Of a stretch of DNA of 64,000 bases, positions 14,808 to 22,079 are shown piece after piece. A model generated the notes under the pieces. That model saw only the letters and a program-made list of their open reading frames with translations. It ran no database searches and had not been told where the DNA came from. Where the stretch lies: the IMG/VR virus record IMGVR_UViG_3300023174_000124, positions 20,860 to 84,859 of that record; one strand, 5' to 3'. This DNA comes from a virus. The position numbers were made by a program, and so were the translations under genes. The first letter of the stretch is position 1, and each line of letters begins with the position of its first letter.

Positions 14808-14837
14808 TATAAATAAAATAAACTCTTTATTAAGAGT
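14808..14837 (-). terminator. Hairpin terminator at the end of the 245-aa gene
   Basis: ACTCTT at 14822-14827 and AAGAGT at 14832-14837 form a six-base stem with a four-base loop that contains the stop codon of the 245-aa gene. On the minus strand it is followed by the T-rich TTATTTTATTTATATATTTT, as in intrinsic terminators. The next minus-strand gene starts about 40 bp further on. Confidence 0.5.
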
Positions 14838-15567
14838 GATTAACCATAGCCATTCTTACAGAGAATCTGACTTCACCTACAGTGCCACCCTCAGTAGCAG
14901 TAGGACTACAACCTACAATAATTTCAGGAGCACCACCACCTGTTAAACTGACTTCACTATAAGGTCTAATAATAGTAGGGTTTAGACCTGGATGGAAAGT
15001 AGTATATAATTCTTGGTCAGGGTCAAGATTAGTGATATTGATTGTATGAGAGAAGTAAGGAAGCATAATATCCATACAACCTGCACCCATAGTATCAGGT
15101 TCGGAAGCTAGGATAGGAGCATTACCTGTAAATGTAAAAATAGGGTGAGCAGTGGTGAAGAAATCGTAAGGAGGGACAGCAATAATCGGACCCCATTCGG
15201 AATAAGTAGTAGGGTTATGTTTATATCTACCTCTTAGGCGAACGAATAAAGATTCACCATCGGAAGGGATTCTAGTATCACCTGCGACATAAGTAGTAGC
15301 ATAGTCACCAAGATCAAAAACAAAACGAGTATTGTTTCTTTTAGATTCTTCAGGTTGTATTCTAGTAGTTTCAATAGCAGGTGATTGAAAAGAACCTCCG
15401 ACTCTGACTTCAAACATTAATCTAGGAGCATTAAAAGCAGTATTGACATTACTAGCACCTGAAACTTGAACGATATCAAAACCTCTGAGTAATTCATTAC
15501 GAATACTCATATCAATAAGACCTTTAGAACGATAATTAAAACTAGCGGCTAATCTACCTCTGGACAT
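14830..15567 (-). CDS. Virion structural protein, beta-rich
   Basis: 245 aa without membrane segments, rich in beta strands (FDIVQVSGAS, RLMFEVRVGG, FVRLRGRYKH, EVRFSVRMAMV). It lies at the head of the run containing the 243/244-aa paralogs, with AAGGAG before the ATG. Composition and position fit a capsid or tail surface protein. No specific family recognised. Confidence 0.65.
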   Translation of the reverse strand: MSRGRLAASFNYRSKGLIDMSIRNELLRGFDIVQVSGASNVNTAFNAPRLMFEVRVGGSFQSPAIETTRIQPEESKRNNTRFVFDLGDYATTYVAGDTRIPSDGESLFVRLRGRYKHNPTTYSEWGPIIAVPPYDFFTTAHPIFTFTGNAPILASEPDTMGAGCMDIMLPYFSHTINITNLDPDQELYTTFHPGLNPTIIRPYSEVSLTGGGAPEIIVGCSPTATEGGTVGEVRFSVRMAMVNHS

Positions 15568-15627: not shown

Positions 15628-16011
15628 TTATTTGCTTTCTTTTTTCACTAGGTCATTATAGCTTTCAGTATTTTTACCTTTAGATTTAGCTAATTTTTGA
15701 GCATCTGACCAGGAATCTACTCTTTCACCATCGACATTGGGGACTAGAGTGACCCCTGGTGCTTCTTTTTTCATTTCATCTTGTTTAATGGTAGCTTTGC
15801 TTCTCCGAGCTTCCATTTGTTTTTTAATACGGCTATTTTTATCACCCCAATCATCGCCTTTAAACATAACTTGGGGCATAGCAGGTATTTTATTACATAT
15901 AGTATCTGGACCACAATCTAAACACACTTCAGGTGTAGAAGATTCTGACATTTTTTTAGTGACTTCAAATTCTAAATCGCACTTAGGGCATTGATATACA
16001 TAAGTAGGCAT
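15628..16011 (-). CDS. FmdB-type zinc-ribbon protein
   Basis: 127 aa. The N-terminus MPTYVYQCPKCDLEFEV and a second CLDC pair (Cys8, Cys11, Cys30, Cys33) match the FmdB/CxxC zinc-ribbon family of putative regulators. A VMFKGDDWGDKN segment near residue 50 is also typical of that family. The rest is charged and probably disordered. AAAAAGGAG precedes the ATG. Its role in a phage is unknown; nucleic-acid or protein binding is likely. Confidence 0.75.
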   Translation of the reverse strand: MPTYVYQCPKCDLEFEVTKKMSESSTPEVCLDCGPDTICNKIPAMPQVMFKGDDWGDKNSRIKKQMEARRSKATIKQDEMKKEAPGVTLVPNVDGERVDSWSDAQKLAKSKGKNTESYNDLVKKESK

Positions 16012-16038: not shown

Positions 16039-16338
16039 CTATACCGATTTTATTTTTTTTAAAACAGCATAAGTATGTTTACATAATCTGTTTTCACCTT
16101 CAGGGTCAGTCTTTTTAGGTTTAGTAGCAGTGCCTTGAGGTGAACCTAATAAATACCCGTCTGTTTTTGCATGATACTCACAACCTTGATATACCCAGAA
16201 CCCACAAGTACAATTTATAAAGATATTCTTATCTTGATCTACCTCTAAATTAACCTTTTCATCACCTATAGAAAATGTATTTTTAGTACCTCTGCCTTTA
16301 TATTCTCCCTCAACATCTAAAACTTTGCTTTTTTTTTT
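16039..16338 (-). CDS. SWIM-type zinc-finger ORF in the -1 frame of the preceding gene, no own start
   Basis: Starting at a run of ten A on the minus strand (16329-16338), the -1 frame is open for about 96 codons to a TAG at 16039. It encodes KVLDVEGEYKGRG, then CTCGFWVYQGCEY and, about 40 residues on, CKHTYAVLKKI: the CxC...CxH arrangement of a SWIM zinc finger. The sequence is clearly protein-like, yet no ATG, GTG or TTG exists in this frame between an upstream TGA and the domain. It must therefore be made as a frameshift extension of the 332-aa gene, or the run length is a sequencing error. SWIM domains bind DNA or protein. Confidence 0.65.
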   Translation of the reverse strand, partial: KKKSKVLDVEGEYKGRGTKNTFSIGDEKVNLEVDQDKNIFINCTCGFWVYQGCEYHAKTDGYLLGSPQGTATKPKKTDPEGENRLCKHTYAVLKKIKSV

Positions 16339-17315
16339 ACTTCAGGATTAAGACCTGACAAGATTTCTTTTTTAAGCATAGCTGTTCTAATCATTTGAGA
16401 AGCTAATCTTTTAGATGGTGGGATATAGTCTTTAATGCCATATTCTAGGGTGTCTACTATATCCATATCAAAAGTCCCATCTTCTTTAATACCTGTATAT
16501 TTGATAACGGACAGCTCACACTTAGGTTTTTTAACATTGTTATTTTTGTAGTATCCTAAGAATTTAACTTTTCTAGGAATGAGATAGAGATACATTTTTT
16601 TATTACTTAAATCCATAACGACTTGAGAAGTGGATTTCATATCTACTTTTTCTTTACTATCTCTTACCATATTTAAAGGATTAAAGGGGTCTTTACCTAC
16701 ACGATATCCATATACTGTGGGTGCTACATCTTCAACATATTGAACTTCTTTTAATTTACGGATAGCTCTATTTCTTCTCATAACAGAACTGTCTCTTTTA
16801 ATCCCTTCTTGATAACCTGCTTCTTCATGATTAATACCATGATTAGTTCTTACATGGATACCACCATTTCTAAGGGTTTTAACAACACAGCCATGTTCTT
16901 TAGTGAGTTCAATAGATTTAGTGGTAGTGCCATCAGATATAAAAGTATGACCTGTTAAGCCACCGAGATAATCACAAATGACACTAACTGCTTCATCTAA
17001 AGTTTTTTGTTGGAGAGCTTTGAGAACTTTTTTAGGGTCTTTGTTTAGGATAACTATTTTAGGGTTAGTGACTCTATTTTTTTCTTTTTCATCATCATTA
17101 ACTGAGAGAGCTGCATTTACAATACCGATACCATATTCATTCATGCCTTCAGTCCACCCTGTGAGTTCATCTTTATAATAAAGAATTTCAACACCATTAA
17201 TAACTTCATGGTAGACTTTCAAAGGGGGCAAGTAATTTCTATCTCTATTTTTAAATAGTACACGACTACCACCCCACTCACCAGTCGCTATAATACAAGC
17301 TTCTTTATTCATCAT
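16317..17315 (-). CDS. Ntn-hydrolase / acyl-CoA:6-APA acyltransferase-like protein
   Basis: 332 aa. Near the N-terminus EACIIATGEWGG gives a candidate nucleophile Cys7, followed by LFKNRDRNY, GMNEYGIGIVNAAL, GHTFISDG and RTNHGINH, the order expected in the C45/AAT family of N-terminal-nucleophile hydrolases, where the Cys becomes N-terminal after self-cleavage. The substrate in a phage is unknown; amide or ester cleavage is likely. A C-terminal segment MIRTAMLKKEIL resembles the short tag. The end contains ten A in a row, followed two codons later by TAG, and the -1 frame continues into a zinc finger. Confidence 0.75.
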   Translation of the reverse strand: MMNKEACIIATGEWGGSRVLFKNRDRNYLPPLKVYHEVINGVEILYYKDELTGWTEGMNEYGIGIVNAALSVNDDEKEKNRVTNPKIVILNKDPKKVLKALQQKTLDEAVSVICDYLGGLTGHTFISDGTTTKSIELTKEHGCVVKTLRNGGIHVRTNHGINHEEAGYQEGIKRDSSVMRRNRAIRKLKEVQYVEDVAPTVYGYRVGKDPFNPLNMVRDSKEKVDMKSTSQVVMDLSNKKMYLYLIPRKVKFLGYYKNNNVKKPKCELSVIKYTGIKEDGTFDMDIVDTLEYGIKDYIPPSKRLASQMIRTAMLKKEILSGLNPEVKKKAKF

Positions 17316-18783: not shown

Positions 18784-19663
18784 TATTACTAACTCCTATG
18801 TATTTTAGTATAGGTTTAATAATAGAGAAAATAAAATTTTTAATCTTCTTGTAAGACCACCCAATAAGTCTAAATAAGTCATTAATAAGAGCAAAGAAAC
18901 CCCCACCTGCCATAAGTATTATTTTCTTAGGCACACTCCCCCTAGCTCTATTACTGCCAAATAAGAATAACATAACAAGTTGAGCAAGATATTGTTTTGT
19001 AGTCATTTCTGTGGATGCCCAAGCAGCTAGATACATAGGCAAAGTTATTTTTGTAGCTATGAGATTAAGTAAGAATGGGATAGCTACTATAACTAATGCT
19101 AGTTTCCTATCATTAAGATCAACAACATAATTTAAACTATCTTTGATAACTTCCGACCCTGGTATTAAAGACATGACATCTCTAGTTTTACCTTGAAGTA
19201 GTTCTTTTTTAGTAGGTTTAGTAAATAGGATACCTGTTTTTTTCTTAAGTTCACTAGTGCTGTCTGCTACTAGGATTTCAAACAAGTAATGAATTAAGTC
19301 TGATGTGTCGGTGAATTTTTTTAAGGTGTCTCTAAATTTCTCTGCAAATTCCGTTTTAGGTTCTCTAAAACCTTCTTCTTCTATATAGTCTAAGAAAGCA
19401 GGGAAATTTAGATTAACAGACCCATCACCTTTTGTCTCAAACGCTTCCCAAGCACCTGAGAAAAACTCATATGCACCTGAACCTAATAACTTATCAAGAT
19501 CGAATTTTTTAATAAAAGAATTTGCCCATACCTCTAAAAGTTTCTCTTTCATCTTAAAAGGAATGGACTTAGATAAGACTTCTTGTTCAGCTAAAGTCAT
19601 ATCCTTATTTTCAAAGGCTCTTCTTATCATAGCTCTTTGAATATAAGCTCTTTTATTTAACAT
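18734..19663 (-). CDS. Multi-membrane-segment protein with N-terminal tag
   Basis: 309 aa. The N-terminus MLNKRAYIQRAMIRRAFENK is a form of the recurrent tag. The middle is soluble and helical; from ~178 on there are three or four hydrophobic segments (LALVIVAIPFLLNLIATKI; LAQLVMLFLFG; KIILMAGGGFFALINDLF; FIFSIIKPILKYIG). GAGGAAAGATT stands directly before the ATG, formed by the last codons of the upstream gene. Part of four consecutive membrane-protein genes. Confidence 0.65.
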   Translation of the reverse strand: MLNKRAYIQRAMIRRAFENKDMTLAEQEVLSKSIPFKMKEKLLEVWANSFIKKFDLDKLLGSGAYEFFSGAWEAFETKGDGSVNLNFPAFLDYIEEEGFREPKTEFAEKFRDTLKKFTDTSDLIHYLFEILVADSTSELKKKTGILFTKPTKKELLQGKTRDVMSLIPGSEVIKDSLNYVVDLNDRKLALVIVAIPFLLNLIATKITLPMYLAAWASTEMTTKQYLAQLVMLFLFGSNRARGSVPKKIILMAGGGFFALINDLFRLIGWSYKKIKNFIFSIIKPILKYIGVSNNEQNTKNTYQGILQPT

Positions 19664-20658
19664 AATCTTTCCTCAAGCATTCTATAAAACACTGGATTAT
19701 ATGAAGCAAGTTTTATAGCTTCGGATAAAACTTCTTGTTTTCTATCAAATAGAGATAAGGTTTTATTCTTAGCCCAGTCATATCCTTTAGAGATATTTAG
19801 AGAGAGGTCTTTAAGAACATCAGATATTTTATTGTAGGCTAATTTCAGGTGAGGAATTAATCTAGCAATAAGAACAGCTGGGATAACTGTAGTCGCAATA
19901 CCAAATTTTTTAACAAGATTGGCTGTTGTATCGACATCTGTTAAAATCGCCATCAATAATATACTACCTATCATAGGCATTAAATGTAAAAGAACACCTA
20001 CTACAGGAGCACCGAATAAAAACACTTTTACAAGAATGACTTTACTTAAAGCAAAAAGACCATTAACAGCAAAAAATTTAGTGTTGTCTAAAAATAAGAA
20101 TGCCTCATTAGAAGATTCTGTTAGGTCTATACTTTTTTCTATTTGTTTATTCATTAGAGATTCTTGTTTTAAAATATCTCTTACTTCCAATAAAGACACT
20201 TTTGTCAAGGATGCAATTTCTTCTGGAGTTTTAGCAGCTATTAATTGACTTGTGAATCTAAATAAAGAATAGATGTCTTTACGATTCACAAAAGTATTTA
20301 AGATTTGAACAATAGCTTTTTGAATGATGTTTACAGGTTTTTTTAATTTGGCACTTACAATGTTTTTACCATTAAAAAGTCCTTTTTCTACTATATAGTT
20401 TTTAACAATATCTACATTCTCTCTTACTGTAGAAGTTACATCATTTTTTACTTGATCTAGGTGAGCAACTAAAACATCAAATTTTAATTTTTCTTGTTTC
20501 TCTTCAGGTAGAGATTCGATTAACTCAGGTGTAATATCCATAGCATTAGCTTGTTTAGTGTTTAAACACATTAAACAAGCTCTTCTAAGGTTTTCCCCAC
20601 CTTTAACTTTGAAACTCATTCTATACAAATCAGAGATAATATTCGCTTTATTTTTCAT
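19657..20658 (-). CDS. Multi-membrane-segment protein, tandem duplicate A
   Basis: 333 aa, a duplicate of the C-terminal 330 residues of the gene immediately upstream: they share KVKGGENLRRACLMCLNTKQ, LIESLPEEKQEKLKFDVLVA, VIPAVLIARLIPHLKLAYNK and the C-terminal SEAIKLASYNPVFYRMLEER. Residues ~205-280 contain three or four hydrophobic segments. The C-terminal AIKLASYNPVFYRML is related to the tag. Near-identity at the DNA level at both ends shows recent duplication. The ATG overlaps the upstream TGA (ATGA). Confidence 0.7.
   Translation of the reverse strand: MKNKANIISDLYRMSFKVKGGENLRRACLMCLNTKQANAMDITPELIESLPEEKQEKLKFDVLVAHLDQVKNDVTSTVRENVDIVKNYIVEKGLFNGKNIVSAKLKKPVNIIQKAIVQILNTFVNRKDIYSLFRFTSQLIAAKTPEEIASLTKVSLLEVRDILKQESLMNKQIEKSIDLTESSNEAFLFLDNTKFFAVNGLFALSKVILVKVFLFGAPVVGVLLHLMPMIGSILLMAILTDVDTTANLVKKFGIATTVIPAVLIARLIPHLKLAYNKISDVLKDLSLNISKGYDWAKNKTLSLFDRKQEVLSEAIKLASYNPVFYRMLEERLC
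20548..20581. repeat. 34-bp near-perfect palindrome, copy 1
   Basis: AGCTTGTTTA at 20548-20557 pairs with TAAACAAGCT at 20572-20581, enclosing GTGTTTAAACAC, itself a perfect palindrome, and two extra bases. It lies inside the coding sequence of the duplicated membrane protein, and its partner is at 21519-21552. Confidence 0.7.
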
Positions 20659-22079
20659 AATCTTTCCTCAAGCATTCTATAAAACACTGGATTATATGAA
20701 GCAAGTTTTATAGCTTCACTTAAAACTTCTTGTTTTCTATCAAATAGGGACATAGTTTTATTTTTAGCCCAATCGTAACCTTTAGAAATATTTAGAGCTA
20801 TGTCTTTAAACACATCAGAGATTTTATTGTAGGCTAATTTTAGGTGTGGGATTAATCTAGCAATAAGAACAGCTGGTATGACAGAGGTTGCGATACCCAT
20901 TTTTTTTAAGAAATTAGCTGTTGTTTTAGAGTCTGTTAAGATAGTCATTAATAGAATAACAATAAGGACAGGAACTAGGTGCATTAAAGCACCTGTAATA
21001 GTAGCCCCTAGAAACACGACTTGTATTAAGACTACTTTAAGTAAACTCATAGAACAATTAACAGCAAAAAATTTTAAATCATCCATACCCATAATAAAAG
21101 AAACCATTTTTTCACTTTTTTCACCTAAGCTATTTAAAGGTATCTCTTTTTGTATTTCTGAAACAGGCACTTTGATTAAGTTAGCTACTTCTTCAGGTGT
21201 GTCTGCTGCTATTAAAGCACTCGTAAATTTTAACAAAGAATAAGGGTCTTTTTTTTGAGCAAAAGAATTTAAGATTTGAATAGTAGCTTTTTGTTGAATA
21301 TTAACAGGTTTTTTTAGTTTCATACTCAAAAGGTTTTTACCATTAAAAAGACCTTTTTCATCTAAATAGGATTTGATAATATTAATGCTCATCCCAATTT
21401 TAGAACTTATGTCATTTTTTACTTGATCTAGGTGGGCTACTAAAACATCAAATTTTAATTTTTCTTGTTTCTCTTCAGGTAGAGACTCAATTAATTCAGG
21501 TGTGATAGTCATAGCACTAGCTTGTTTAGTGTTTAAACACATTAAACAAGCTCTTCTAAGGTTTTCCCCACCTTTAACTTTGAAGCTCATTTTATATAAA
21601 TCTAGTATAAGATTTGCTTTCTTTTTCTTAGCGAGACTCATTTTAATTTCTTCCTCGTTTTCTTTCTTCCATTTTTTCCATTTAGCATATGAAGGACTAT
21701 TAGGTTTACTAGGGTCATGTCCCCAGTTTCTTAATGAGATTTCCCATTTACTCATACCTGTAGAACCAACAGGTTTACCAGGATTTCCACCGAGCATACG
21801 ACCATTAAACCCATTTTCTTGACTAGCATTATCAAAATCTTGTGCAGACCAATCTTCAAATGGTTTATCTTTTCTTCTCTTAATACGATGAAAGGAATCA
21901 TAACCTGATTGTATTTTCCCATTTTGTTTAGCTTCTTCTCTATTTAAAGATGCTTCAAGATGGTCAGGGTCTTTGCCCCAATCTTTTAATTCTTTTTCAG
22001 ACATATTGATAAGACTCTTCCACTTATCATATATCTCTTTTTTTTCATCATCAGATCGTTCTTTAGCGATGTGTTTCAT
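20655..22079 (-). CDS. Membrane protein, tandem duplicate B with extra N-terminal domain
   Basis: 474 aa. Residues 1-~145 form a soluble domain with SGYDSFHRIKRRKDKPFEDW and two W-G-x-DP segments (KDWGKDPDH, RNWGHDPSKP), a pattern I associate with DUF5824-like domains in other phages. The remaining ~330 residues duplicate the downstream 333-aa protein, with hydrophobic segments around 335-430 and the same tag-like C-terminus. GAGGTCTTC precedes the ATG inside a hairpin (22086-22110). The extra domain may confer a specific partner. Confidence 0.7.
   Translation of the reverse strand: MKHIAKERSDDEKKEIYDKWKSLINMSEKELKDWGKDPDHLEASLNREEAKQNGKIQSGYDSFHRIKRRKDKPFEDWSAQDFDNASQENGFNGRMLGGNPGKPVGSTGMSKWEISLRNWGHDPSKPNSPSYAKWKKWKKENEEEIKMSLAKKKKANLILDLYKMSFKVKGGENLRRACLMCLNTKQASAMTITPELIESLPEEKQEKLKFDVLVAHLDQVKNDISSKIGMSINIIKSYLDEKGLFNGKNLLSMKLKKPVNIQQKATIQILNSFAQKKDPYSLLKFTSALIAADTPEEVANLIKVPVSEIQKEIPLNSLGEKSEKMVSFIMGMDDLKFFAVNCSMSLLKVVLIQVVFLGATITGALMHLVPVLIVILLMTILTDSKTTANFLKKMGIATSVIPAVLIARLIPHLKLAYNKISDVFKDIALNISKGYDWAKNKTMSLFDRKQEVLSEAIKLASYNPVFYRMLEERL
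21519..21552. repeat. 34-bp near-perfect palindrome, copy 2
   Basis: Identical to the palindrome at 20548-20581 and at the equivalent position of the paralogous gene. Outer arms AGCTTGTTTA and TAAACAAGCT flank GTGTTTAAACAC plus AT. Confidence 0.7.

Follow-up and report, generated by a model that had tools for sequence, protein, structure and literature searches.

The locus and its reading frames

We have analyzed a window of 64,000 nucleotides from an 84.9-kb uncultured viral contig. Two overlapping frames of its minus strand meet at a run of ten A, the longest homopolymer of the whole window, and the features of the locus are the following:

16317..17315, minus strand: 0-frame ORF of 332 aa, an AAT/Ntn-hydrolase-like enzyme (about residues 1-300) followed by the SWIM leader helix, with the C-terminus NPEVKKKAKF and a stop
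16339..16394, minus strand: SWIM leader MIRTAMLKKEILSGLNPEV, read in the enzyme frame, which aligns to the start of the standalone SWIM genes of relatives
16338-16329, minus strand: A10 run, in the 0-frame GT A AAA AAA AAA G by direct reading, site of the -1 frame change
16039..16341, minus strand: -1 frame ORF of 100 codons plus stop, lacking a canonical start, with the SWIM zinc-finger core (CxC...CKH); predicted SWIM peptide TDGYLLGSPQGTATKPK

Read directly, the 3' end of the 0-frame gene is GAA GTA AAA AAA AAA GCA AAG TTT TAG, confirming at 16338-16329 the GTA plus nine A, GCA AAG TTT TAG and ten consecutive A of an earlier note on this DNA. With its stop (TAG, 16319-16317) the enzyme gene ends 12 bases after the run. 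The -1 frame begins AGT AAA AAA AAA AGC AAA GTT TTA GAT and is bounded by a TGA at 16344-16342 and a TAG at 16041-16039. The position of the shift is confined to 25 bases between two stops, with A10 inside. The same note had placed a SWIM zinc finger in the -1 frame, open for about 96 codons; we count 100, and the Pfam profile PF04434 scores 22.5 bits there against a curated cut-off of 19.6. The three C and the H of the finger are invariant in 12 aligned sequences.

From the TGA at 16344-16342 to the CxC (CTC...CKH in the -1 frame) we found no ATG, GTG or TTG, and therefore SWIM is readable only through the enzyme frame, in agreement with the earlier note, which saw no start of its own for this ORF between the upstream TGA and the finger; a -1 shift is needed. 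Relatives do carry standalone SWIM genes, and one could imagine a separate gene here too, with a non-canonical start past the enzyme stop, but with ATG, GTG and TTG absent ahead of the finger, and a conserved leader that would be lost, we regard this as very improbable. Codon usage, scored per codon with the other genes of the window as reference, gave 0.247 for the -1 frame past A10 and 0.246 for the enzyme frame, and about -0.9 or lower for the remaining frames. Since the score after the run equals that of the enzyme and the alternatives are strongly negative, the coding in the -1 frame is not due to chance. Direct reading of the SWIM -1 frame found no second defect. No other copy of the same virus appeared when viral contigs were scanned with the protein sequence of the enzyme or of SWIM, or when the exact DNA pattern was sought with an A run of variable length.

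The enzyme part

The enzyme half had been called Ntn-hydrolase-like from its sequence, and this class is borne out. The AAT profile PF03417 (Pfam) scores 24.3 bits in the 332-aa ORF, against a curated cut-off of 23.2, and 28.9 bits in the relative L101. An AlphaFold2 model (pLDDT 75, pTM 0.76) has as its top Foldseek match isopenicillin-N acyltransferase (2x1c, E 5e-9, TM 0.54), followed by bile salt hydrolases and penicillin V acylase, so the modelled product has the Ntn-hydrolase fold. Cys7, the expected nucleophile, which self-processing may free as in this family, is kept in 59/59 distinct aligned phage sequences. A PDB sequence search with the enzyme and SWIM parts gave no convincing solved relative, the enzyme being matched by fold comparison only. 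The fold and an invariant Cys near the N-terminus are shared with the AAT/isopenicillin-N acyltransferase family (PF03417, PDB 2x1c), whose phage members have a short peptide ahead of the Cys; the window enzyme differs in carrying the SWIM leader and finger as well.

A gamma-glutamyl-cyclotransferase-like gene adjoins the enzyme gene, as it also does in L101:

17363..17785, minus strand: gamma-glutamyl-cyclotransferase-like gene

In several other phages (L021-L027, L024, L026, L009) the AAT enzyme is an internal domain of proteins of 475-961 aa, and therefore it has been fused repeatedly to differing partners.

The SWIM module in related phages

Relatives encode the SWIM leader and finger without interruption, in some as a gene by itself and in others at the C-terminal end of another protein. 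Homology to these phage proteins spans both sides of A10, taking in the leader in the 0-frame and the finger in the -1 frame. With the leader helix in the enzyme frame and the rest of the module in the -1 frame, A10 therefore interrupts one homologous module and not two genes. The partner of SWIM varies: in one set of relatives SWIM stands alone, as a gene of about 125 aa that has a start codon, and in others it forms the C-terminal domain at the end of long proteins unrelated to one another. A separate start for the zinc finger in related phages, which the earlier note had named as evidence that would refute its reading, exists in many distant relatives and not in this phage, so that this objection applies in part.

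A scan of genome contigs gave no close SWIM relatives. The contigs of the nearest relatives at this locus measure 45, 196 and 316 kb. The three nearest (L101, L104 and L214) are 49-52% identical, and in them a protein that we call X runs on without a break into SWIM at its C-terminus, with the AAT enzyme as a separate gene directly after X-SWIM in two of the three. The window has its X domain at 20655-22079, joined to another protein, and the AAT enzyme now precedes SWIM. Synteny in these viruses places SWIM ahead of a Zn-ribbon gene and a conserved 245-aa protein, which here are:

15628..16011, minus strand: FmdB/Zn-ribbon gene, downstream of SWIM in near relatives, a synteny anchor
14830..15567, minus strand: conserved neighbour protein, a synteny anchor for locating relatives

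The A run is absent from the SWIM junction of all three nearest relatives, which have a VASDKQ- or VPSTKQ-type sequence instead. It follows that only this lineage has the run and that the site itself is unconserved. The earlier note had looked to related phages for a conserved A run or a continuous ORF; the former was not found in the nearest three, where the ORF is continuous, and among the sequences compared the strongest argument for programming, conservation at the SWIM locus, is missing.

Two side observations concern the same region. The proteins at 20655-22079 and 19657-20658 are tandem paralogues of membrane-like type, the first with the N-terminal X domain. Besides, a tag-like motif (R/K-V/L/I-A-S/Y) seems to be concentrated toward the N- and C-termini of proteins in G001 and G002 and in the window (16317-17315, 19657-22079), and the slippage leaders also contain it.

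Long A runs and the possibility of an error

A run of ten A can also be a miscount. The locus might encode a continuous AAT-SWIM fusion (or a mixed population), with A10 standing for an assembly under-count of A11 or for a one-base deletion that recently inactivated the gene at a hypermutable run. The longest run is where a break of frame would be expected, a single missing A accounts for the -1 relation, and the nearest SWIM relatives have a continuous ORF and no run. Against this, a comparison of every ORF with two related genomes found no other frame jump in the contig of about 85 kb (the cases flagged were paralogue pairs), the -1 frame holds no second defect, and the long coding runs of other phage contigs are intact. 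We judge such an error or deletion rather unlikely, although it is the main rival to slippage.

The run counts are as follows. Across twelve phage contigs whose base composition is similar, coding runs of A9, A8 and A7 are almost always read through and 7/9 coding runs of at least ten A are intact, the exceptions being the SWIM site and an A11 in a relative. Within the close AT-rich clade, 4/5 coding runs of at least ten A are -1 junctions, at two loci, and elsewhere 0/8 are junctions and 8/8 are intact. The excess in the clade gives a Fisher probability of 0.007 by run, and of 0.055 with the second locus (DN, see below) counted once. The same clade also has an A10 within a long intact coding frame (G002:303039, L212 3039), a natural slippage control.

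A/T runs of at least nine are strongly depleted both within and between genes in the record of the window and in G001, G002 and G015, where runs of 6-7 are in excess between genes. We had considered the depletion of coding runs of at least nine A as selection against slippage and dropped this, because the intergenic depletion is the same; it may be mutational, a matter of run instability, and was not used as proof. Such instability of long A/T runs would also favour a recent one-base deletion at this copy. Separately, an A8 slippage candidate in L064/L069 was rejected, having a GTG start in the downstream frame.

A second poly-A junction in the same clade

We have found a similar arrangement in a different gene, here called DN. 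It was first spotted in a relative as an A11 in a HAD-like gene (PF10307, HAD_SAK_1) with DN in the -1 frame. In general, a 0-frame leader or an inserted HAD enzyme comes first; A10/A11 follows, and past it the conserved DN lies in the -1 frame with no start. The junctions are:

L302, 1470-1513: DN junction
L305, 300-345: DN junction
L306, 1460-1510: DN junction
G002, near 295,762, minus strand: DN junction

In L302, L303 and L304 the junction is A10 and its sequence is identical across three different metagenomes. L305 has A10 at 86.5% nucleotide identity and L306 has A11 at 80-84%. All of L302-L306 read TT-A10/A11, with the 0-frame stop 1-3 codons from the run. In L299-L301 DN is continuous with its own start, and in the relative G001 it is a normal gene, again with its own start. 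Codon differences in DN between L302 and L305 are 41 synonymous and 18 non-synonymous; being mostly synonymous, they indicate that DN is kept as a protein. L305 lacks the HAD gene and has only a short leader, MENLNFLASRLTTLKKKL followed by a stop, ahead of the run, so that the enzyme partner is inessential to the slippage device.

On these sequences assembly error is excluded for the DN junction, and its reproduction across independent assemblies also speaks against an under-count or deletion at the SWIM site. The DN junction is a stronger case for slippage than the window's own. A poly-A -1 junction conserved in the same clade makes real slippage likely at the SWIM site too, by an analogy that backs a habit of the clade and is no proof for this particular copy. 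The slippage site proposed in the earlier note gains its credibility here.

Runs of this length mutate fast, and a homopolymer placed at a fusion junction might act as a phase-variation switch, replication slippage toggling the SWIM fusion between virions. Fast mutation of such runs would suit it. At the SWIM site only one sequence is available, but the DN run has a constant length across three metagenomes and its slippage-type copies are never in-frame, and we consider a switch of this kind improbable.

RNA polymerase or ribosome

Slippage could be the work of either machinery. Both the SWIM site and DN contain the heptamer A AAA AAA in the correct frame, and ribosomes have been reported to slide on iterated AAA codons (PMC4363877). 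Programmed -1 ribosomal frameshifting on A AAA AAA would be a sub-case of slippage with a different agent, and our confidences in the two overlap, since either agent would slip on this one run. However, no downstream RNA structure at the SWIM site surpassed shuffled sequences (z +0.5, +1.4 and +0.4, for pseudoknot-free structures), and no consistent one did so at DN (z -1.2, -0.6 and -2.6). The description of the run as a "classical" site, in the ribosomal sense, is thus not supported, and ribosomal frameshifting as the agent appears unlikely. A bare A10 with no downstream structure fits transcriptional slippage at least as well.

In sign, every junction is repaired by one added A. In A/T runs transcription insertions prevail and rise exponentially with run length (PMC5574713), and one study of E. 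coli RNA polymerase found insertions about three times as frequent as deletions (PMC6260861). The A11 near the 0-frame stop of Citrobacter rodentium tssM1 is read with one more A at a level of about 20-25%, the two products both being required (PMC4256274). Thermus dnaX and IS elements make the same use of nine-A runs, and disrupted genes that contain runs of this kind have been recorded (PMC1088944). We favour slippage by RNA polymerase because the sign of the junctions fits an added A together with this insertion bias and the tssM1 and dnaX/IS precedents. RNA polymerase is most likely the main agent, though sequence cannot separate it from ribosomal sliding. As expected of a transcriptional slippage gene, the SWIM junction has a run of at least nine A (here ten) with homologous coding on both sides; conservation of the run among homologues is found at DN and is lacking at SWIM.

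Interpretation

We read the AAT-SWIM locus as one gene with a poly-A slippage site, the most likely of the explanations and one that we hold with moderate confidence. Most transcripts, with ten A, would give an AAT-type N-terminal-nucleophile hydrolase/acyltransferase whose last part is a leader helix cut short. In some transcripts RNA polymerase would slip on A10 and add one A, or alternatively ribosomes would slide back one base on AAA AAA AAA, in either case passing to the -1 frame. The -1 product would be a fusion, the enzyme being joined to the whole SWIM zinc-finger module. Judging from the sequence, this fusion is probably made, and the poly-A junction is probably a genuine means of expression, as opposed to an error of sequencing. 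The interpretation of the earlier note is thus partly supported: its fixed ratio of fusion to short form, and the fusion as the purpose, stay conjectural, and the partner of SWIM is not conserved. We infer slippage in vivo at this copy, the ratio of the products and a role of the fusion beyond low-level SWIM expression.

Common to the SWIM and DN loci are a conserved phage protein read only after slippage and a captured enzyme (AAT or HAD) as the variable first part. More tentatively, and with somewhat less than even confidence, bare A10/A11 may be a recurrent device of an AT-rich jumbo phage clade, in which slippage is required for the reading of DN and SWIM, an enzyme inserted upstream becomes part of a slippage fusion and the host (or phage) polymerase sets the rate of chimaeras. 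The conserved DN junction is the more general finding. A standard gene caller would report the enzyme and miss the zinc finger; alternatively, sites of this kind would be thrown out as faults of assembly. If true, a conserved poly-A slippage junction would add transcriptional slippage to the tail chaperone frameshift in the repertoire of tailed phages, and phage sequence could report on the polymerase fidelity of an unknown host. The DN gene makes poly-A slippage directly testable.

Comparison with known systems

The class of mechanism is known and the phage instance apparently new; our search of the openly licensed literature turned up no account of poly-A slippage for these phages, which is weak evidence of novelty. 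The closest parallel is tssM1 of C. rodentium (PMC4256274), with an A11 near the 0-frame stop, a conserved C-terminal domain in the other frame and restoration by one added A. There two products were shown experimentally, whereas for AAT-SWIM they are proposed from sequence; moreover, tssM1 is a bacterial secretion gene and AAT-SWIM a phage enzyme with a zinc finger. Thermus dnaX and the IS poly-A genes (PMC1088944) likewise have a coding run of at least nine A and two products, and their runs are conserved among homologues or tested, whereas the run of the SWIM locus is unconserved and that of DN conserved. The -1 frameshift of phage tail assembly chaperones (PMC10885494) also links a phage gene pair by a -1 shift, but it involves different genes and uses a short heptamer with stimulators, where AAT-SWIM has a bare A10.
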